Of a stretch of 64,000 nucleotides of DNA, positions 53,663 to 64,000 are shown piece after piece; the first letter of the stretch is position 1; every line of letters begins with the position of its first letter. The notes under the pieces were generated by a model. That model was given only the letters and a program-made list of their open reading frames with translations. It ran no database searches and was not told where the DNA came from. The DNA is from a virus: the IMG/VR virus record IMGVR_UViG_3300034272_001354, positions 1 through 64,000 of that record. One strand, 5' to 3'. Position numbers and translations under genes: made by a program.

Positions 53663-53689
53663 AAAAAAGGGTCTTTAAGACCCTTTTTT
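53663..53689. terminator. Bidirectional terminator
   Basis: AAAAAAGGGTC / GACCCTTTTTT with loop TTTAA lies between convergent genes. The stop of the minus gene (53675-53677) lies inside the hairpin. Confidence 0.9.
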
Positions 53690-54739
53690 AGTTATTTGTG
53701 GAAGTTTAATAATTAATCTTCTATTAGGTGCCGTTTGATTTTCATCTGTTACGTCAGGCCATTTTTTACCCTTAGCAAATTGGTCAGTTTCTCCAATACC
53801 TTTAGGTATAAAATTTAATTTAATTCCCGGTAAACTATTTTTAAGAAGTGAAGCAATTGTTTCTGCTCTTTTTTTAGATAAATCCATATTATAATCTTTT
53901 CTTTTTTGACCTGTTTTAAGTTTACCTTCAGGGTCTTCATCGATAGATGCTGATGATATTACTTCTACATCTCCTGTAGCATCAGAATAATTAGTTTTAA
54001 TTGATTTGATAAAATCTTTAAATTCTTGTTTAGCCTCATCTGTTAAATTAGTCTCATTAAATCTAAATGGACTTTCAATATTTAATTCAAATGGTGTATC
54101 TTCTGGTGTGTCTTCAGGTGTTTCAGGTGTAGGTTTATTTGAAAAATATTTAGCACTAGCACCAGGAAACAATTGTATTAAAATTCCATATCCTCCTTTT
54201 TTAACATACATTACCGGAGATATTGTATCATCTTTAGATTCTTCATATCTACCCTTTAATAAACTTAAGTCTTGTTTTATTATCTTTGCAGTGTAAAGTG
54301 TTGGTGAACCAACCTTTGATTTGTCGGTTGGAGATGGGAGTCTTCGGTCATTTGGTGCCATTGCAACAAATTTATAATCCATATTAGCATTTTGTAATGG
54401 TACTAAAGGCTCACCACCTACCGAAGATGAATAAAGGTCAGGCCAATATTTGTCAGTAAGTTCAAAATTTAAACCCCAACCATAATCTGAAACTAATTCT
54501 TTTGTTTTATAATTAACTTTAAAATTATATAAATCACCATTTACATATTTCCACTGTTGTCCATCAGCAACATCAACAATTGAATATAAGTAATTTTGAT
54601 TAATTTTAAAATAAAATTCACTTCCTAATTTATAAAAAGATTCATCAATTTCTTCTTCTTTTTCTTCTTGTTCTTGAAGAACTTTTTTAACTAAATTGTA
54701 TAATTCTGATTCTGTTAGTTTTATAATTTTTTTTCCCAT
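53675..54739 (-). CDS. OmpA-like-domain virion protein with capsid-targeting-like N-terminus
   Basis: 354 aa. KLTESELYNLVKKVLQE23-Q parallels the start of the protein at 34912 and gives an L-x-E site. The final 130 residues (NLTDEAKQEFKDFIKSIKTN, VEVISSASID, MDLSKKRAETIASLLKNSLP, NRRLIIKLP) are a clear OmpA C-terminal domain. That domain normally binds peptidoglycan, so a virion copy could contact the cell wall during ejection; a head location is inferred from the N-terminus only. Confidence 0.7.
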   Translation of the reverse strand: MGKKIIKLTESELYNLVKKVLQEQEEKEEEIDESFYKLGSEFYFKINQNYLYSIVDVADGQQWKYVNGDLYNFKVNYKTKELVSDYGWGLNFELTDKYWPDLYSSSVGGEPLVPLQNANMDYKFVAMAPNDRRLPSPTDKSKVGSPTLYTAKIIKQDLSLLKGRYEESKDDTISPVMYVKKGGYGILIQLFPGASAKYFSNKPTPETPEDTPEDTPFELNIESPFRFNETNLTDEAKQEFKDFIKSIKTNYSDATGDVEVISSASIDEDPEGKLKTGQKRKDYNMDLSKKRAETIASLLKNSLPGIKLNFIPKGIGETDQFAKGKKWPDVTDENQTAPNRRLIIKLPQITKKGS

Positions 54740-56126: not shown

Positions 56127-56158
56127 TTTTGTCCATTCAAATATTTGCATTACTTTTG
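56127..56158 (+). promoter_or_regulatory. Host-type promoter of the clpC-like gene
   Basis: TTTTG ending at 56131, 19 bp, TACTTTTG (56151-56158) fits TTTG-N19-TAnnTTTG. The leader is about 50 bp. Confidence 0.75.
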
Positions 56159-56214: not shown

Positions 56215-58260
56215 ATGACAGAATCTATGGATGGTGGAAGTAACGGTGGAAATAAAGCAGTTAAAACTGATTCATCAACTCCCGTATTAGACAATTTTAG
56301 TAGAGATTTAATAAAACTTGCCGAAGAGGGTAAACTTGACCCGGTGGTTGGTAGAGAAAGAGAAATCACTCGAATTGCACAAATCCTTTCACGTAGAAAG
56401 AAAAATAACCCAATTATTATTGGTGAACCTGGTTGTGGTAAAACCGCAATTGTTGAAGGTCTTGCCATTATGATTTATAATGGGGATTGTCCAAGAAACT
56501 TAATGGACAAAAGAATTGTGTCATTAGATATGACATCAATTGTTGCGGGAACAAAATATCGTGGACAATTTGAAGAAAGAATGAAAGTCATTATCGAAGA
56601 ACTTCAAAACGAACCAAACATCATTGTATTCATTGACGAAATCCACACAATCGTTGGAGCAGGTAATTCATCAGGTTCAATGGACGCGTCGAATATCTTC
56701 AAACCAGCACTTGCTCGTGGAGAGATTCAATGTGTTGGGGCAACCACTTTGGATGAATACAGAAAAAACTTTGAGAAAGACGGAGCGTTAGAAAGACGTT
56801 TCCAAAAAGTTGTTGTGGATGCTGCAACCAAAGAAGAGACATTAATCATCCTTAAAAATGTAAAAGACAAATACGAGAACTACCACAAGGTAACTTATAC
56901 TGATGAAGTATTGTCTGTATGTGTTGATTTAGCAGACCGTTATATCACAGATAGAGAATTCCCGGACAAAGGATTCGACATTATTGATGAGGTTGGAGCG
57001 AGAAGTCAGGTAGATGTGAAAATGCCAGATTCAATTGAAAAATTGAAACTTCAAGCGTCAAACATTAAACAAGAAAAAATTGATGTAGTAAAACAACAAC
57101 GATACGAGGAGGCGGCAAACCTACGTGATAAAGAAAAACGTATCTTAACCAAACTTGAAGCTGAAAAGAAAAAGTTTGAAGAAGAACTTCTTACACACAA
57201 AAAAGAAATCACTTTGGATTTAGTTTATGAAGTGGTTTCCAATATGACAAAAATTCCAGTTACCAAATTAAATGCTGATGAAACCAAACTATTGTCAGAG
57301 ATGGAAACAAATCTATCTGATAAAGTTATTGGACAATCTGAAGCAGTTTCAAAGATTGCAAAATCAATCCGTAGAAACAGAATTGGTATTAAAGACCCGA
57401 ACAAACCAATCGGTTCATTCATCTTTTTAGGTTCAACAGGTGTTGGTAAAACATACTTGGCAAAACAACTAGCGAAACAAATGTTCGGTAGCGAAGATAA
57501 TATGATTCGTGTGGATATGTCCGAGTACCAAGAAAAACACACCATTTCAAGATTAATTGGAGCACCTCCGGGATACGTTGGATACGATGAAGGTGGACAA
57601 TTAACCGAACAAGTGAAAAACAAACCTTATTCTGTAATTCTATTTGATGAAATTGAGAAAGCAAACAAAGATATCTTTTCAACACTTCTTCAAGTATTAG
57701 ACGATGGTCACCTTACCGATGGTATGGGGAGAAAGATTAACTTCAAAAATTGTGTCATCATTATGACATCAAATGTTGGAGCTAAAAAATTACAAGATTT
57801 TGGTTCAGGGGTTGGTTTTAAAACAGGAGCTAGTTCTTATGTAGAAGAAGAATACAAACGTGAGACACTTAAAAAAGAACTTAAGAAATTCTTTACTCCG
57901 GAATTCTTAAACAGAATTGATGAGGTTGTTATCTTTAACTCTTTGGTTAAAGAAGACGTTAAGAAAATCGTTAAATTGGAATTGGACAAACTATCTAAAA
58001 GATTGGTTGGATTGAAATATAACATAACATTTGATGAAAGTATTTTAGAACTAATCTCTGAAGTTGGATTTGATGAAACCTACGGGGCAAGACCAATCAA
58101 AAGAGCTATCCAAGATAAGATTGAGGATTTTGTATCTGAAGAGATTATCAAAGGAAATATGGTGGAGGGTGTTCCATACACCCTTGTATCCGTAGAGAAA
58201 GAAGTGGTGGTCAAAACAGAACCTACCAAAAAGACAAGAAAGAAAAAAGAGGACAATTAG
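56215..58260 (+). CDS. clpC: ClpC-like AAA+ unfoldase lacking the N domain
   Basis: 681 aa. D1 has Walker A GEPGCGKT (about 70-77), Walker [11 protein letters not shown] and [10 protein letters not shown] with its Arg finger. A UVR-type segment ([17 protein letters not shown], about 295-312) separates it from D2: Walker A GSTGVGKT (about 405-412), [21 protein letters not shown], and GARPIKRAI (sensor 2). GSGVGFKTG near residue 532 is the VGF-type loop that docks ClpP; ClpB lacks it. The usual 140-residue N domain (adaptor and substrate binding) is replaced by a 25-residue flexible tail. It should unfold substrates for host ClpP. Confidence 0.9.
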
Positions 58261-58271
58261 TCCTCTTTTTT
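58243..58271. terminator. Terminator at the clpC-like gene end
   Basis: AAAAAAGAGGAC / GTCCTCTTTTTT with loop AATTA; the TAG stop is inside the hairpin. It also reads as a terminator for the convergent gene at 58281. Confidence 0.9.
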
Positions 58272-58280
58272 TATATTAAA

Positions 58281-58703
58281 TTATTTTTCAAAACTCATAA
58301 GAAACCTTTCAAATTCTTGTAAAATATTAGGTTTTGACAATAAAGGAAACTTTTTAGGTTCAATTGCTAATCCCATTCCGTGAATTTTATCTTTAGTTCC
58401 TACCTGACTAGGTTCTTTAACTTTTTTGGTTTTAACAATAGCATAATCAGGATTAAAAGTAACAAATAACGTTAATTTTTTTTCAGGTATATTTTTCATA
58501 AATTTTAATTCAGAACCCCCTGTTTCTATCGAATAATTAAGTTTTCTCAAAACTGAGTCTAACATTTGAGGTGTTACCTTTTTTTCTTTTTTAGGAGTAG
58601 GAGTTGGTACTCCCTGTTCAGAAATTACATTTTTTTTACCTGAGTGCATCTCAAGGATTCTATTTTTCTCATCTTGAGAAATGTCATTAAATAAATTTTT
58701 CAT
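58281..58703 (-). CDS. Small virion-type protein with shared N-terminal signal
   Basis: 140 aa. MKNLFNDISQDEKNRILEMH, then NVISE29-Q, parallels the start of the protein at 37393-38523 and ends at an I-x-E site. A PTPTP linker and a compact alpha/beta domain of about 90 residues follow. Likely a packaged internal protein. TATTTATA lies 16 bp upstream. Confidence 0.55.
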   Translation of the reverse strand: MKNLFNDISQDEKNRILEMHSGKKNVISEQGVPTPTPKKEKKVTPQMLDSVLRKLNYSIETGGSELKFMKNIPEKKLTLFVTFNPDYAIVKTKKVKEPSQVGTKDKIHGMGLAIEPKKFPLLSKPNILQEFERFLMSFEK

Positions 58704-58719
58704 ATCGTTATCTTTTTAT

Positions 58720-58727
58720 TATAAATA
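58720..58727 (-). promoter_or_regulatory. TATTTATA motif before 58703
   Basis: ATATTTATAATAAAAAG lies 16 bp before the ATG. Candidate late promoter. Confidence 0.5.
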
Positions 58728-58732
58728 TATCG

Positions 58733-58766
58733 AAAAAAAAAGAGAACATTAAGTCCTCTTTTTTTA
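58733..58766. terminator. Terminator after the peptidase gene
   Basis: AGAGGAC / GTTCTCT stem (minus strand, one G-T pair) with A and T runs on both sides; it ends the 58767-59588 transcript. Confidence 0.8.
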
Positions 58767-59588
58767 TTAAAACAATTTAAAATATTTACTATCAACTTTA
58801 AACGGATACTTCTTATATCCTAACCCCTCAATCATCTTTTTACCGGTCTCTATTCCACTATAAACATCTTCGACAACAACATACTCATTTGGGGTGTGAT
58901 AGTTGTAATAACCTATCGCAAAATTGATACAGGAGAAATCAAAGATATTCTTTAATGCGTAAACATCTGTATATGGGTGAGATTGATAGTCATGTCTACC
59001 GTTAAACCCTTCGTTTAATGCTACATCACAAATTTTAAAAAATTCACTATCTCTTTCAAACAATTGTGTTCCCATACAATATTCACTAACCATAACATTT
59101 CCCGGAGCATCAAACTGAATACCATAACCAACATTTAAAAAGAAATTTGGGTCGGCCTTTTTAGAACCATGACATCCGGTTTCTTCTGATACAAAGAATG
59201 CCGCTTTTAAATTTGGTAATTCTTTTAATAATTCCAAACAAGCAAAAACCCCACATTTATCGTCACCACCAATACCTGTTGGGTGTCCAAAATGATTATA
59301 CGCTTTTAGGGATGGTTTTAAAACTTTTTGTTCGTTAGGTAATGTTTCCTCACGAATAATAATGTTATCCAAAGAGTGGACCGTGTCGGTATGAGCAATC
59401 ACACAAGGGAAATATTCAATAAATTCATCGGTTTGTTTAACCGCATAAATATTATTATGCTCATCCATATTAAATGGAATCCCATTGTCTTCTAACCATT
59501 TGATTAGAAACTCAACCATAAGGTCTTCTTGATATGTTTTTGTCGGAACTGACAAAACTTCTTTTAATAATTCATAATCTCTATCCAT
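58767..59588 (-). CDS. M20-family metallopeptidase (PepT-like)
   Basis: 273 aa. Zinc-site motifs in order: VIAHTDTVH (His/Asp), GIGGDDKCG (bridging Asp), FVSEETGCHG (catalytic and metal Glu), IQFDAPGN (Asp), and a late His in YNYHTPNEYV. This matches peptidase T and related di/tripeptidases, but it is shorter than PepT (about 400), so the dimerisation domain appears reduced. It could finish degradation of Clp-derived peptides to amino acids. The host-type -7 element ends 4 bp before the ATG. Confidence 0.85.
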   Translation of the reverse strand: MDRDYELLKEVLSVPTKTYQEDLMVEFLIKWLEDNGIPFNMDEHNNIYAVKQTDEFIEYFPCVIAHTDTVHSLDNIIIREETLPNEQKVLKPSLKAYNHFGHPTGIGGDDKCGVFACLELLKELPNLKAAFFVSEETGCHGSKKADPNFFLNVGYGIQFDAPGNVMVSEYCMGTQLFERDSEFFKICDVALNEGFNGRHDYQSHPYTDVYALKNIFDFSCINFAIGYYNYHTPNEYVVVEDVYSGIETGKKMIEGLGYKKYPFKVDSKYFKLF

Positions 59589-59592
59589 TCAA

Positions 59593-59600
59593 CAAAGATA
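59593..59600 (-). promoter_or_regulatory. Host-type -7 element of the peptidase gene
   Basis: TATCTTTG on the minus strand ends 4 bp before the ATG. The expected -33 position (19 bp away) holds CTTTA, a weak match. The transcript would be leaderless or nearly so. Confidence 0.6.
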
Positions 59601-59630
59601 ATATAAAATATGACAATATTAAAGATTTTA

Positions 59631-60998
59631 TTAGTTTATTCTAATAAACCCTTCAAATAACTCGGGAGAAACTAAAAAGTTATTAAATTCTTCTTCGGTG
59701 TAACTTCTATCTTCCAATCCACCACCATCTTTTTTAAACACTTGAACAACAATTTTATTTGTTGCCGGGTCGATTTTTCTAATAAAAAACTCTCTACCTG
59801 ATTTAGTTTCATATCTGTTGTTAAGATGATAATTTTTAGTAATTCTATTGAATATATTAGAGTATTCATAAACATCAATAAATTCATCAGAATCTTCTAT
59901 TTTTTCAAAGATTTTATCAAGTTGTCTTTCCACAGATTCATTGAATGATTTTTCATCAAAGCTGACACTATCAATTTCCCACCTATTCTCATCCCATCCG
60001 CCAATATTACTATCTCTATGACCAATATTTTTTAACACTTCTCGTAAAGATAATGTTTTATCTCCAACGTTGTTATATAAAGATAATAATATACTCACAG
60101 TGGTGTAATACTGTCTAAAACAATCTTGTCTAATTAAACCATAATTAGAAAAATAATCACACACGTCACCCTCAATCCATTCTTTGGCACCATTATTTCT
60201 ACTAGCATTTTCTTCGTCAGTCCAATCAGTAATAATGTAATCAACCTCATTTGGAAACATTTTCTCTAATAATTTACTAGATTGTTCTTTGTCTTCATCA
60301 GTATCTAATTTAGCGGTAGATGGACTAATAAGTCGAAGTATTTGTTTTAATTTAGTTAAATTGTCATCTGAAAATTGATATAAAAGATATCCTTCATTCC
60401 ATTCATTATATCCGTGGTCATAATCAATAAAATTGGCTCCATCATAATAAGAATAAACCGATTCCGCAAAAGGAATATCGTATTCGTCAATATCAAATAA
60501 TTTTAAATAATCCTCCATATCATCAAACTGAAGTTTAACCATACTTTTAGTTGGATTTTTCTCATTATATATGAACTTCCAAACAAGGTCGTCAGCTCTT
60601 TGCATTTGATTAGACGTTACTTTTTCTCCGTTTTTAACATCCAATAGTAATTTGTAAACATCTGATTGACCCACAATATTATCAACAACGGATTTAACCT
60701 CATCCGGTAAATCGGATTCAAATTCACTTCTATTTAATTCTCTGTGTCTGGTTGCTTCACCACCATAATATTCTATTTTATTATCTTGTGTTTTATGAAT
60801 AACTGATGTTTGAATTGGTTCCTTATTTTTATCTATAATAAAATAAGTGTCCCCCTCTTTAAATTGATTCCATCTGTCTTTATAGTTTTCCGGTGCGTAA
60901 TAAACAAAGGAATCGTAGTCCAATGGGTCTACAACCATCCAATCTTCATTATCTAATAATATATTTTTCATCCCGTGAAAATCCTTTGTGTCAGGCAT
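59631..60998 (-). CDS. Large hypothetical acidic protein
   Basis: 455 aa, not recognised. It is acidic and aromatic-rich (VYSYYDGANFIDYDHGYNEW, YIITDWTDEENASRNNGAKE). There is no signal peptide and no catalytic motif. TATTTATT (61015-61022) lies 16 bp before the ATG, next to the divergent tmRNA promoter. Confidence 0.6.
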   Translation of the reverse strand: MPDTKDFHGMKNILLDNEDWMVVDPLDYDSFVYYAPENYKDRWNQFKEGDTYFIIDKNKEPIQTSVIHKTQDNKIEYYGGEATRHRELNRSEFESDLPDEVKSVVDNIVGQSDVYKLLLDVKNGEKVTSNQMQRADDLVWKFIYNEKNPTKSMVKLQFDDMEDYLKLFDIDEYDIPFAESVYSYYDGANFIDYDHGYNEWNEGYLLYQFSDDNLTKLKQILRLISPSTAKLDTDEDKEQSSKLLEKMFPNEVDYIITDWTDEENASRNNGAKEWIEGDVCDYFSNYGLIRQDCFRQYYTTVSILLSLYNNVGDKTLSLREVLKNIGHRDSNIGGWDENRWEIDSVSFDEKSFNESVERQLDKIFEKIEDSDEFIDVYEYSNIFNRITKNYHLNNRYETKSGREFFIRKIDPATNKIVVQVFKKDGGGLEDRSYTEEEFNNFLVSPELFEGFIRIN

Positions 60999-61030
60999 TG
61001 ATATTTATTTTAATAATAAATATAATTTTA

Positions 61031-61061
61031 TTTGGATTTATCCAAAAATGTATTATCTTTG
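61031..61061 (+). promoter_or_regulatory. Host-type promoter of the tmRNA
   Basis: TTTG (61031-61034), 19 bp, TATCTTTG (61054-61061): an exact consensus. The mature 5' end (61076) is 15 bp past the element, leaving a short leader for RNase P to remove. Confidence 0.85.
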
Positions 61062-61075
61062 TGGTATCAAAATAT

Positions 61076-61471
61076 GGGGGTAAAATGGTATTGACTGGCA
61101 TATCTACTTATTTGGGGCACGTAGTGAGAAGTTTCCTATCACTTAAATCTATGGATGACAAAATTATAAATGGCAACATTTTAAACAAAATGGCTCTAGT
61201 AGGTCTTGTACGTCAAGACGAGCTTGTGAACGTAGCGTAAGCAAACACACATTCGGGCCGGTGAGCATTACGCCTAGGAACAGAAGCTTTTACAAAGGTG
61301 TGGTACCTATCCGAAAAGGTACAAGTGGAGGATTAGTTCTCAATAAACCGAACCACTCAAAAATAAGGGAATTGTGAAATTTCGGATTGTTAGCTTAAAC
61401 AATGTCCTAAACGTGTAGTCCTGAACACTTAGGGTGAGCAACACGAGGCTTCGAAGCCTCTACCTCCACCA
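61076..61471 (+). ncRNA. ssrA: tmRNA (transfer-messenger RNA), one-piece
   Basis: About 396 nt. GGGGGTA (61076-61082) pairs with TACCTCC (61461-61467) as the acceptor stem; the third pair is G-U, the AlaRS identity element. CCA is encoded (61469-61471). GGTATTGACTGGC matches the conserved GGnnTnGACnGG after the acceptor. AAACGTGTAGT matches the conserved tRNA-like 3' part, and TTCGAA lies in the T-loop region. The tag frame is 61202-61240. tmRNA with SmpB rescues stalled ribosomes and tags the nascent chain. A terminator follows directly. Confidence 0.93.
61202..61240 (+). other. tmRNA tag reading frame: GLVRQDELVNVA-stop
   Basis: Resume codon GGT is preceded by CTAGTA, which keeps the U(-5) and A(-4) needed for resumption in E. 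coli tmRNA. Twelve codons end in TAA. A glycine start is usual in Bacteroidetes tags, but those end ALAA (or AMAA); this ends VNVA. The start codon is inferred; an upstream in-frame alternative would give a longer tag with the same C-terminus. Confidence 0.75.
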
Positions 61472-61477
61472 AAAGAA

Positions 61478-61504
61478 AAACCCATCATTACGATGGGTTT
61501 TTTT
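61478..61504 (+). terminator. Terminator of the tmRNA gene
   Basis: AAACCCATC / GATGGGTTT with loop ATTAC, then TTTT. It also reads in the other direction for the convergent gene at 61528. Confidence 0.9.
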
Positions 61505-61527
61505 ATTATCAGTTCAATGTTTATTTT

Positions 61528-61860
61528 TTAATCTTGTAATAAATCCTTTTTACTCGGATTCAATTTATTCGTTAATTTATCTAATCTTGAATCAACAAAT
61601 CTATATATTTCGTCAATATGAGTCGTAATATGTCTATTCGTTGTTTCATTTAATTTATTTGTTCTATCAATCTCACCATCAATACGACGGTTAATCATTT
61701 GGTCTACCTCATCTATTCTTAAATAAATATTATTTATTATTTCTTGTTGAGTTCTAACCAATCCTTTTAATTTTTTGATGTTTGAATACATCCTAACCAC
61801 AACTATAACCCCCAGTATCCCGAGAACCATAACCATACCTAAAAACATTCCTATAATCAT
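61528..61860 (-). CDS. Membrane-anchored coiled-coil protein
   Basis: 110 aa. Residues 1-22 (MIIGMFLGMVMVLGILGVIV) form one transmembrane helix, followed by a basic KKLK and a coiled coil (IINNIYLRIDEVDQMINRRI). The topology resembles small inner-membrane spanins or phage membrane anchors. No holin or endolysin is visible near it. Function open. Confidence 0.6.
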   Translation of the reverse strand: MIIGMFLGMVMVLGILGVIVVVRMYSNIKKLKGLVRTQQEIINNIYLRIDEVDQMINRRIDGEIDRTNKLNETTNRHITTHIDEIYRFVDSRLDKLTNKLNPSKKDLLQD

Positions 61861-61905
61861 AATTTCTGTGTTTTATTTATTTGTTTATTTGAACTGATAA
61901 TTTTA

Positions 61906-62298
61906 TTACATTTTAACTTCTTGGTGACCCCCACCCCATAAATAACCATCACCATAATTTGTACAAATTTCTTCACCGGGTTGGATTGTTTGTAAAGCAT
62001 AAAATTGGAATGCTCTTTTTGTTGGATGATTTCTCCACATAGCATTATTTGTATCTGAATGATTATATATACACCCATAACCTAATGGAATCACATATTC
62101 TTCCCAATTTGGTCCTTGAGGATAACAAAATCTATAATCATCAAGTAGTTTTGATTTTTCCCATTTTTTTGTGGGTAATTTTACTAAATGACATTCTTCA
62201 ATTACCTCATCTTTTTGAATAACGTCAATAGCAAAGACCCCCATTCCTTTTCCTGGTGAGGGTTTAATTTCTATTTTAGTAGGTATTAATAAATTCAT
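61906..62298 (-). CDS. SET-domain protein methyltransferase
   Basis: 130 aa, a minimal SET domain. GKGMGVFAIDVIQKDEVIEE (SAM loop and strand), GYGCIYNHSDTNNA (the NHS-type pseudoknot core), FQFYALQTIQPGEEICTNYG (the GEEL..NYG motif with catalytic Tyr). SET enzymes methylate lysines. Bacterial and phage homologues exist, but substrates are rarely known. Its place beside smpB and the RNA genes makes ribosomal or RNA-binding proteins candidate targets; that is inference. Confidence 0.85.
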   Translation of the reverse strand: MNLLIPTKIEIKPSPGKGMGVFAIDVIQKDEVIEECHLVKLPTKKWEKSKLLDDYRFCYPQGPNWEEYVIPLGYGCIYNHSDTNNAMWRNHPTKRAFQFYALQTIQPGEEICTNYGDGYLWGGGHQEVKM

Positions 62299-62311
62299 AA
62301 TTTAATTATAA

Positions 62312-62341
62312 TAAAAAAAGGAACTATTTCAAGTCCCTTTT
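62312..62341 (-). terminator. Terminator at the smpB end
   Basis: AAAAGGGACT / AGTTCCTTTT (minus strand, one G-T pair) with loop TGAAAT and a T run. The smpB TAG stop lies inside the stem. Confidence 0.85.
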
Positions 62342-62761
62342 CATATCTCTTTCAATATCCCGAGATTTAATACTATCTCGTTTATCGTGGAGTTTTTTTC
62401 CTTTGGCGAGAGCAATCTCCATCTTAACCAATCCGGTGTCATTTATGAAGACACGATAAGGAATGATGGTTGTCCCGTTTATTAACTCACGTTCCAACTT
62501 ATTTAGTTCTTTTTTCTTGGCCAATAGTTTTCTATCTTTAACTGTTTCATGGAATGACCCATAACCATAATCGGAGATGTTCATTCCCTTTATAAACAAT
62601 TCCCCATCATTAAAATAACAATACCCTTCAGATATGGAGACCTTTCCTTGACGGATGGACTTCACCTCTGAACCAACTAATTTGATTCCCACAATTAGGG
62701 TTTCTAAGAATGAATACTCAAACTTGGCTTTCTTATTGACTATGTTAATTGATTTTTTCAT
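62324..62761 (-). CDS. smpB: SmpB, tmRNA-binding protein
   Basis: 145 aa from the ATG at 62759-62761; a longer frame starts upstream of the promoter and is rejected. NKKAKFEYSFLETLIVGIKL, GSEVKSIRQGKVSISEGYCY and ALAKGKKLHDKRDSIKSRDI are standard SmpB signatures, including the basic C-terminal tail that enters the mRNA channel. It binds the tRNA-like part of tmRNA and delivers it to stalled ribosomes. The host-type promoter ends 4 bp before the ATG, so the mRNA is likely leaderless. Confidence 0.95.
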   Translation of the reverse strand: MKKSINIVNKKAKFEYSFLETLIVGIKLVGSEVKSIRQGKVSISEGYCYFNDGELFIKGMNISDYGYGSFHETVKDRKLLAKKKELNKLERELINGTTIIPYRVFINDTGLVKMEIALAKGKKLHDKRDSIKSRDIERDMKRDLK

Positions 62762-62765
62762 AGGA

Positions 62766-62796
62766 CAAAGATAATATAAAAATTGGTATAAACAAA
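62766..62796 (-). promoter_or_regulatory. Host-type promoter of smpB
   Basis: Minus strand TTTG (62793-62796), 19 bp, TATCTTTG (62766-62773): an exact consensus. The -33 element overlaps the T run of the upstream RNA terminator, so the two units are packed with no spare bases. Confidence 0.85.
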
Positions 62797-62827
62797 AAAA
62801 GGTGTCACATTTCTGTAACACCTTTTT
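62794..62827 (-). terminator. Terminator of the large non-coding RNA
   Basis: AAAAAGGTGT / ACACCTTTTT with an inner partly paired loop (TACAGAAATGTG on the minus strand), followed by T7. Confidence 0.85.
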
Positions 62828-63715
62828 GGCTAATACGATGAGAATACTCGTGTTATTAAGAATCTTCGGAAGGATTATTGTTTCCCTTCTTTTCCACCAT
62901 CTTTTGAATGGTAATCCTCAGTGACAATTGGTTAGACCAATTACTCCTTGAGATATCATCTACTCTCTTATTATTCAACTCTCTTCAACCTTGCGGGCTG
63001 ACTCCGGATTCGACTCCGTAGAGGTTTTTCGTAAGAATACATTCTGACTTGCGGTCATCCTGTGCAACGAACGGCTCGTTACTATGTAGTCACCTTGTCG
63101 ATGATACCTGACAGACACTTTTGCTTATGTATCTTTTTAGTTTTACTTAAAATGTCCTATAAGTTAATTGTGTTGTGGATGTGTCCAAGTAGAGGTCTGT
63201 CGTAAGCTTCGTTATCTTTTGAACAACAAAATACTAATCTACTCGGTAGAGTGTCCCCACTCTCATATTTTAAGATTACTTCAAACTGACATCTTGGTAG
63301 ATGTTTCGTAAGGTTAGTAGCGACACCACTCGTTCTCTAACTTACCTTTCGGTTTTAAGTCCCCTTTGATATTGGAATCCGTAATTATAAGGTTGGATGA
63401 CCCTATTTCTCACATAATCCCTATCGGTTATTCTTGTTGGTGTTCCCACCTCAACCTGACGACCCACATCGCCCGGTCACCCAACCACTTTCTCTAAAGC
63501 GTTGCCCTCAATACTGAAGGTCAGGTGATATCCGACTTGTATACTCGAGCTCCCTTTCAGAAGCCGCAGAACCAATAACACTAATGATTCCACTTTATCC
63601 CGGTTTCCCGGTTTATTTAAGGATGATATACCACCCATTATCGTTTCTTACATCACCGAAGTGTGTAATGGATAATCTAAAATTTCTAAGAACGTTTAAG
63701 GTTTCCCTCAATTGT
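62797..63715 (-). ncRNA. Large structured non-coding RNA, about 0.92 kb (GOLLD/ROOL-like candidate)
   Basis: The region has no plausible gene on either strand, yet has its own consensus promoter and terminator. It is less AT-rich than its surroundings and full of stable hairpins. On the minus strand these include CCGG-GAAA-CCGG (63600-63611), GGTG-GGAA-CACC (63439-63450), ACC-GAAA-GGT (63344-63353) and AGAGTG-GGGA-CACTCT (63248-63263), all GNRA tetraloops, and ATTGGT-CTA-ACCAAT (within 62926-62942). Known giant phage RNAs of about 0.6-0.9 kb next to tRNA genes are ROOL and GOLLD. Class membership is a guess; no rRNA or RNase P signatures are seen. Confidence 0.75.
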
Positions 63716-63719
63716 TTTA

Positions 63720-63750
63720 CAAAGATAAGTGATTTTTTTCATTTGTCAAG
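63720..63750 (-). promoter_or_regulatory. Host-type promoter of the large RNA
   Basis: Minus strand TTGACAAATG... with TTG followed by 19 bp and TATCTTTG (63720-63727): both elements match the Bacteroidetes consensus. Transcription should start near 63715. Confidence 0.85.
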
Positions 63751-63878: not shown

Positions 63879-63890
63879 ATGTAAAAAAAA

Positions 63891-63963
63891 TGTGGGTGTA
63901 TGCTCTACCATCTGAGCTACGGATAAATCCGGAGGGATTTGAAACCTCGACACGACACCCACA
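63891..63963 (-). other. Circularly permuted tRNA-like element
   Basis: 73 nt, exactly tRNA size. Read 5'-3' on the minus strand: TGTGGGTGT, variable-like CGTGTC, T-arm GAGGT-TTCAAAT-CCCTC, CGGAT-TT-ATCCG (both acceptor strands joined), TA, D-arm GCTC-AGATGGTA-GAGC, A, T, ACACCCACA. The T-arm therefore precedes the D-arm, and the ends, perfectly complementary over 9 bp, lie where the anticodon arm should be. A T8 run follows, as in a terminator. No anticodon and no 3' CCA. The T-arm has one T-C mismatch. Confidence 0.7.
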
Positions 63964-64000
63964 CTAATCTTTCAATATTTTTATGAACTTTATTTCTTGT

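Follow-up and report, generated by a model that had tools for sequence, protein, structure and literature searches.

Introduction

In bacteria, trans-translation with Clp degradation involves a transfer-messenger RNA (tmRNA, gene ssrA) with a G3-U70 acceptor stem, a GGC resume codon, a tailed SmpB protein and an unfoldase with a ClpP loop. All of these features, including the position of the resume codon, are shared by a ribosome-rescue island that we describe here from the virus record IMGVR_UViG_3300034272_001354. This record is 76,982 bases long, and its first 64,000 bases constitute the window, i.e., the whole stretch of DNA analysed. Unlike in the bacterial system, the parts are phage-encoded, the tag has 21-22 residues and is of a phage type, ssrA lies beside the genes of an M20 peptidase and of a ClpC-type unfoldase without N domain, and SmpB is an optional component.

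Taken singly, the parts are already known from phages. Huge phages carry tmRNA and SmpB in very large genomes, as is the case here (Al-Shayeb et al., 2020, PMC7162821); the accessible portion of that article contains one sentence on tmRNA and SmpB, no occurrence of "Clp", and neither the tag nor the gene order. Moraphages are aquatic jumbo phages with mostly Bacteroidota hosts, and their core list includes a subunit of ClpA type as well as a putative peptidase, similar to the island; the available text does not mention tmRNA, SmpB or GOLLD (Perez-Hernandez et al., 2025, PMC12619734). The GOLLD RNA (RF02032), a 14-meric RNA cage of unknown function, is phage-borne and occurs near tRNAs, as it does here; in the window it additionally adjoins smpB, ssrA and clpC, and SmpB and tmRNA are not mentioned in the accessible part of that study (Kretsch et al., 2025, PMC12286853). 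Phage-encoded ssrA, finally, has been described from mycobacteriophages, Bacillus phage G and phage Melnitz, the tmRNA of the latter consisting of two pieces, and the excerpts of these reports mention no ClpC/peptidase block beside it (PMC4131195, PMC9004378).

An earlier reading of the window, made without database searches (the sequence-only reading), had considered a complete co-located set of tmRNA, SmpB, unfoldase and peptidase unusual. This has to be narrowed in view of the published tmRNA and SmpB of huge phages (PMC7162821) and the ClpA-type subunit and peptidase of the moraphage core (PMC12619734), as far as these sources could be consulted. The conserved block, the tag family and the link to GOLLD presented below were not found in the open-licence PubMed Central literature searched, and no title or abstract start among these papers joins tmRNA, M20, ClpC and GOLLD in phages.

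Results and Discussion

Parts of the island and proposed pathway

The record is a fragment of a jumbo phage genome, some of its proteins matching PHROG entries for major head, portal and large terminase, and the virus is a giant phage of Bacteroidota-type bacteria. Matches in Rfam, Pfam, PHROG and NCBIfam confirmed the tmRNA, SmpB, ClpC-like unfoldase and M20 peptidase that the sequence-only reading had proposed. Together with the tag frame, the protein p455 and the GOLLD RNA they are located as follows:

56215..58260, + strand: ClpC/ClpA-type Hsp100 unfoldase without N domain, 681 residues, with two AAA modules and a VGF ClpP loop
58767..59588, - strand: PepT-like M20 peptidase, 273 residues (PF01546, PHROG 4191, AlphaFold model)
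59631..60998, - strand: p455, a protein of unknown function, with tmRNA in all tmRNA-bearing Clp loci
61076..61471, + strand: tmRNA (ssrA; Rfam RF00023), with G3-U70 acceptor stem and encoded CCA
61172..61240, + strand: tag reading frame GNILNKMALVGLVRQDELVNVA plus stop, resume codon GGC, position as in hosts
62324..62761, - strand: SmpB, 145 residues, with C-terminal tail (PF01668, NCBIfam equivalog)
62835..63735, - strand: GOLLD RNA (Rfam part 62835-63246; homology over about 901 nucleotides, to about 63735)

We consider it fairly probable that the island provides phage-encoded trans-translation with a tag of its own, feeding a disposal route made up of ClpC, ClpP and the peptidase. The phage tmRNA would be charged with alanine, as predicted from its G3-U70 acceptor stem, and would be carried by the phage SmpB, or by host SmpB in relatives lacking a phage copy, into ribosomes that have stalled on broken mRNAs in the infected cell. 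Translation would then switch to the tmRNA frame, and A-GNILNKMALVGLVRQDELVNVA would be added. The tagged proteins would be unfolded by the phage ClpC, which probably takes its substrates directly at the pore because it has no adaptor-binding N domain, and would be passed via the VGF loop to ClpP, either the phage's own, if present, or else that of the host. The PepT-like peptidase might trim the resulting peptides towards amino acids, and ribosomes as well as amino acids would be returned to virion production. If this holds true, the virus brings its own pathway from the stalled ribosome towards recycled amino acids, and its own tag would allow host and phage tagging to be distinguished within one cell.

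Co-inheritance in related phages

The island was followed in two sets of relatives, many of them near copies and most of their records fragments. The Clp-anchored set consisted of the best 80 of 252 relatives, near copies included. Here, Clp has M20 as its neighbour in 78 loci (the other two are cut), and tmRNA was found in 68, GOLLD in 51 and SmpB in 15. Ten of the 12 loci without tmRNA have less than 4.5 kb downstream; in the two others (L334, L336), M20 is displaced by additional genes almost to the end of the locus. When only loci with 5.9 kb or more downstream are counted, the corresponding numbers are 49/49 for M20, 48/49 for tmRNA, 40/49 for GOLLD and 12/49 for SmpB; the tmRNA exception, L336, is cut and belongs to the same contig as L006, where tmRNA is present. 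After clustering of the Clp proteins at 90% identity (L073 excluded), M20 and tmRNA occur in all 14 clusters, GOLLD in 13 and smpB in two. p455 is fast-evolving and yet present in 68 of 68 Clp loci with tmRNA; profile searches gave no family match for it, and its structure model, although confident (mean predicted local distance difference test score, pLDDT, 88.8), has no fold match in the PDB at E <= 0.001.

The SmpB-anchored set comprised 64 viral loci; record searches for tmRNA, GOLLD and ClpP covered 38 of these, and the Clp search 18 records. At SmpB identities of at least 69% (38 loci), 32 loci contain tmRNA, p455, M20 and Clp, 29 of these also GOLLD, and the remaining six carry GOLLD and smpB only. 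Below 69% identity, only 1 of 26 loci had at least one of tmRNA, Clp and GOLLD in its vicinity according to BLAST. Strands are constant in the 80 Clp loci; in the SmpB set, M20 is inverted in L038. Locus L032 is reordered, with GOLLD and smpB together and the ssrA block upstream on the other side.

The ssrA-p455-M20-clpC block is thus nearly invariant and co-inherited in relatives, and SmpB is its variable companion. For the sequence-only reading, which had asked for the co-occurrence of ssrA, smpB and clpC in related phages, this means that the linkage of ssrA and clpC, and with them M20, was borne out, while smpB is mostly absent and stands outside the invariant block. A captured host operon as origin of the cluster is not supported: the surroundings of 26 ssrA genes of hosts, examined to a distance of 1.5 kb, contain neither Clp nor M20, and those of 80 smpB genes of hosts, examined to 3 kb, contain no Clp, M20 or tmRNA; one of the host scans used 32 of 80 loci.

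The same data bear on the possibility that the island serves ribosome rescue only, i.e., that the tmRNA, together with SmpB of phage or host, releases ribosomes from messages cleaved by defence RNases or through phage-induced decay, that ordinary host proteases clear the tagged proteins and that clpC and M20 are mere neighbours in an accessory island. The many relatives having tmRNA without SmpB or ClpP and the location near tRNAs would fit such a role, and the small, hydrophobic end of the tag would presumably be acceptable in principle to host ClpXP. Mere neighbourhood is difficult to reconcile with the presence of ssrA, M20 and clpC together in each of the 14 Clp clusters, and rescue alone with a tag that is conserved as a peptide and not merely as RNA (see below), so that we regard this explanation as unlikely.

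SmpB itself is a clear family member (PF01668, E 4e-47), passing two curated equivalog models (NF003843, 156 vs. 130 bits; TIGR00086, 155 vs. 119 bits) and keeping its C-terminal tail in an alignment with solved SmpB. The best 80 bacterial matches listed are from Bacteroidota by record title, except for one metagenome-assembled genome labelled Roseburia. In a tree of 47 rows, the SmpB of the window clusters with those of other phages (support 89/86), and those of Lak and LR756504 fall among bacterial ones with weak support; from these placements, more than one acquisition of SmpB by phages appears possible.

tmRNA and its tag

The tmRNA matches RF00023 over the full length of the model (1-374), with a low score of 50.3 bits against a gathering threshold of 47 (E 7e-17); in the relatives G015 and G028 the score of 45.6 bits is just under the cut-off. 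ARAGORN, run on the window, did not call the tmRNA, possibly because its T-loop has six nucleotides (TTCGAA; window 61445-61460), a feature of 5 of 29 distinct tmRNAs, namely that of the window and four others. In an alignment of 438 columns, the acceptor stem is paired at 7/7 positions and has G3-U70 in 29 of 30 distinct phage tmRNAs, the exception being L228, the 3′ end of which is misplaced. Two-sided (compensatory) changes among the distinct tmRNAs were observed for acceptor pairs 4-7 and for all five T-stem pairs, with one cell of the T-stem unpaired. L092 and L097, which have another tag type, were excluded from tag and stem counts, and L228 from the stem count. Judged by these pairings, the tRNA-like part of the tmRNA is intact.

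The window's tmRNA encodes a tag of 22 residues, GNILNKMALVGLVRQDELVNVA. A resume point of the form TAAAY-GGC or nearly so is common to host and many phage tmRNAs. The tag frame is open in all 43 tmRNAs, i.e., that of the window and those of 42 loci, among them near copies. These phage tags of 21-22 residues, with 21 distinct coding strings, follow the pattern GN[VI][LI]xK[ML]xx[IVL]GL[IVL]R...A with minor departures. For the codons of the first G, the inner G, L and R, 98, 108, 98 and 56 synonymous pairs were counted vs. no nonsynonymous pair, and for the last Ala codon 108 vs. 0; other tag positions vary. This pattern of substitutions indicates that the tag is under purifying selection and that the peptide itself, in addition to the RNA, is conserved. 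For hosts, 23 of 26 loci yielded a tmRNA call by ARAGORN; 22 of these 23 tags have 9-10 residues and all end in [YF]A[LM]AA, and the remaining one has an odd frame. The host ending is found in none of the 43 phage tags. By these comparisons the tag is phage-specific, of a conserved phage type and unlike Bacteroidota host tags. A second phage clade (G011, G013) has a different tag, ending in AYAA. A shorter tag of 12 residues, GLVRQDELVNVA, was considered and rejected, since ARAGORN calls in three relatives and the resume position of hosts set the start ten codons upstream in the open frame.

The distinctive tag could also be something other than a degron, i.e., a signal that directs or protects polypeptides or hides them from host ClpX. 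Its length of 21-22 residues vs. 9-10 in hosts, the conserved GL[IVL]R core and the missing host ending point in this direction. We nevertheless consider such a function very unlikely, as a C-terminal Ala is kept in all 43 tags, mostly after Val, and unfoldase and peptidase genes are coupled to ssrA.

Unfoldase, ClpP and peptidase

The ClpC-like protein matches PHROG 4871 (E 2e-241), and its best PDB match is S. aureus ClpC (E 1e-223). Because this alignment begins at ClpC residue 151, the adaptor-binding N domain is absent, and the protein is therefore named ClpC-type and not ClpC. It also lies below the NCBIfam equivalog cut-offs of ClpA (721 vs. 993 bits) and ClpB (825 vs. 1232 bits). Of 87 Clp proteins (61 distinct), 82 have 20-48 residues before the first AAA module; the other five, among them L073 with 809 residues, have no marker match. 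Walker A/B and pore-loop motifs of the two AAA modules are each present in 79 to 87 of the 87 proteins, and the [VIM]GF ClpP loop (VGF, IGF or MGF) in all 87, 85 by pattern and two read directly. G018 has, in addition, an incomplete second Clp copy that contains an in-frame stop (G018:C1:213159-213662).

The loop bears on the possibility that virion assembly or disaggregation is the task of ClpC, with the M20 protein acting elsewhere and neither working with the tmRNA. ClpB-type disaggregases are not known to have the ClpP loop, and its retention in 87/87 Clp proteins argues against this role. The absent N domain would be compatible with it; in addition, a function of this kind was suggested for phage ClpA and ClpX (Iyer et al., 2021, PMC7824862), and moraphages are described, in the part of the text available, as carrying DnaK and DnaJ and also a separate prohead protease, the latter speaking against this role (PMC12619734). 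Overall, we give this explanation little credence. In favour of the proposed route, M. tuberculosis ClpC1 without N domain is reported to unfold SsrA-tagged protein still (PMC6274998).

That the unfoldase may dock to ClpP, as proposed by the sequence-only reading, is further supported by the occurrence of ClpP itself. PF00574 matches were found in 14 of 38 records of the SmpB set, and all six SmpB-bearing records larger than 280 kb (G002, G013, G015-G018) have tmRNA, ClpC and ClpP, G015 being counted as tmRNA-bearing although its 45.6 bits fall slightly short of the cut-off. G013 has a single three-gene run of smpB, another gene and clpP, and in G011 clpP and smpB are adjacent. The ClpPs of relatives have a ClpP-type sequence with a Ser-His-Asp triad (positions assigned by eye). 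That of L124 scores 218 bits against an NCBIfam cut-off of 361, far above its head-maturation scores of 58-62 bits; from these model scores, a function of ClpP as prohead protease is unlikely.

For the M20 peptidase, PF01546 gives 25.4 bits (cut-off 24.6), besides the PHROG 4191 match. H66, D68, D109, E135, E136, D160 and H231 are invariant in 19 aligned proteins (L165 excluded), and we take their metal-binding and catalytic roles to be those of the M20 family. The AlphaFold model (mean pLDDT 87.8) has PepT 3gb0 as its best PDB match (E 2e-12, TMq 0.73). The protein fails the curated PepT cut-off (29 vs. 274 bits) and, with 273 residues vs. 373 or more in PepT entries, does not have full two-domain length.

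Several observations weigh against a self-contained route from tagging to disposal. No ClpP was found in the 76,982-base fragment that is the window's own record; in G016, about 75 kb separate clpC from the ClpP on its right, and the window's record stops about 19 kb past clpC on that side, before the expected place of clpP. SmpB is absent from most block-bearing relatives (present in 12/49 Clp loci and in 3/38 further records, see below), which leaves the set incomplete in many cases. In G047 (304 kb), tmRNA and ClpC were found, and SmpB and ClpP were not. LR756502 and LR745206, which we take to be genomes of the Al-Shayeb et al. study, carry SmpB, ClpC, ClpP and GOLLD, with no tmRNA detected (LR745206 has one match of 22.8 bits to the tmRNA model, far below the cut-off). 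Of 18 SmpB-bearing records searched, 11 had no Clp, all of them below 160 kb and possibly fragments. The linkage also partly reflects descent, since many relatives are near copies, and the tag would have to be recognised by a Clp without having the host ending. Among other huge phages, LR756504 (636 kb) has SmpB 3.7 kb from a 44%-identical Clp, with tmRNA and ClpP present, and Lak-B1 has SmpB, tmRNA (47.3 bits) and ClpP.

GOLLD RNA

Directly upstream of smpB and on the same strand lies a GOLLD RNA (RF02032, 306.5 bits vs. a gathering threshold of 150, E 9e-87), which was absent from the sequence-only reading. Its distribution was followed with a 17-base motif, found in 82 stretches, of which 80 were taken; 13 are on contigs met via SmpB, and of the other 67, 38 records larger than 25 kb were searched (one search at E <= 1e-60). 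These contained tmRNA in 22, Clp in 22, SmpB in three and ClpP in two cases. Leaving out four records that match the motif only, the 34 records with GOLLD homology comprise 20 with tmRNA and Clp, two with tmRNA alone (contig ends), two with Clp alone and ten with neither. The association of tmRNA and Clp in these records has a Fisher p of 3e-5, kinship ignored. The ten records with neither rule out a constant link between GOLLD and tmRNA. Where GOLLD loci have 5 kb on the 3′ side, tmRNA is located there in 19 of 32.

GOLLD and the block may also be apart, as in G002, where GOLLD is beside smpB near 24 kb, and ssrA and clpC are near 215 kb. Two phages have GOLLD close to a ClpC, at a distance of 5.5 kb in one (642 kb) and 2.1 kb in the other (635 kb). 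G073 and G052 have it about 7 and 9 kb, respectively, away from a Clp of 50% identity; record searches found no tmRNA in these four. Since they pair GOLLD with Clp in this way, the neighbourhood of GOLLD and ClpC may be older than that of GOLLD and tmRNA. One could go further and regard GOLLD as a functional part of the rescue island that stores, sorts or shields ribosomes or tmRNA-SmpB, with a tag read only by the phage ClpC forming a separate disposal channel; we consider this extension distinctly unlikely. In any case, the island gives GOLLD, a structurally solved RNA cage, a testable genetic context of ribosome rescue and Clp proteolysis.

Promoter-like sites and neighbouring features

Sites resembling a motif that we assume to be the Bacteroidota promoter type are found next to several parts of the island:

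56128..56158, + strand: clpC site, TTTG-N19-TACTTTTG, ending 56 nucleotides before the ATG
61031..61061, + strand: ssrA site, TTTG-N19-TATCTTTG, from a motif scan
62766-62796, - strand: smpB site, TTTG-N19-TATCTTTG, ending 4 nucleotides before the ATG
59593-59600, - strand: M20 TATCTTTG box, ending 4 nucleotides before the ATG
63720-63727, - strand: GOLLD TATCTTTG box, from a motif scan

The sequence-only reading had assigned near-perfect host-type promoters to tmRNA, smpB and clpC and a good -7 element to the peptidase gene, and had suggested that the set could act from the start of infection. Of the six TTTG-N17-21-TAnnTTTG sites of the window, three indeed immediately precede clpC, ssrA and smpB in the matching orientation, and a box precedes M20. 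The motif itself is no commoner than chance (6 vs. 4.8 expected; -7 box 113 vs. 109 expected), and a general promoter enrichment is not supported for the window as a whole. Only the positions of the putative promoters, not their number, are telling. As the TATCTTTG box ends 4 nucleotides before each ATG (window 59588-59600 and 62761-62773), leaderless or near-leaderless mRNAs are suggested for M20 and smpB.

From the left, the gene order is clpC (+), p140 (-), M20 (-), p455 (-), ssrA (+), p110 (-), SET protein (-), smpB (-), GOLLD (-) and tRNA-Pro (-), and a tRNA island follows to the right of the rescue island in the record. The remaining features within the island are:

58281..58703, - strand: protein of unknown function, 140 residues (p140), between clpC and M20; position varies in relatives
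61472..61510, + strand: terminator-like hairpin with T-run after ssrA (sequence read by eye)
61528..61860, - strand: 110-residue protein (p110) with a hydrophobic stretch at its N terminus; many close relatives also have it between ssrA and smpB
61906..62298, - strand: SET-domain protein, between smpB and ssrA, present in some relatives only
62797..62832, - strand: terminator-like hairpin downstream of GOLLD (sequence read by eye)

Outside the island, an OmpA-domain protein starting with a KLTESELYNLVKKVLQEQ-type stretch is encoded at 53675-54739. A tRNA-like stretch at 63890-63965 (- strand) has its T-arm and 3′ acceptor preceding the 5′ acceptor and D-arm; ARAGORN finds a tRNA there only after rotation, with several possible anticodons, which makes this stretch a candidate for a circularly permuted tRNA gene.

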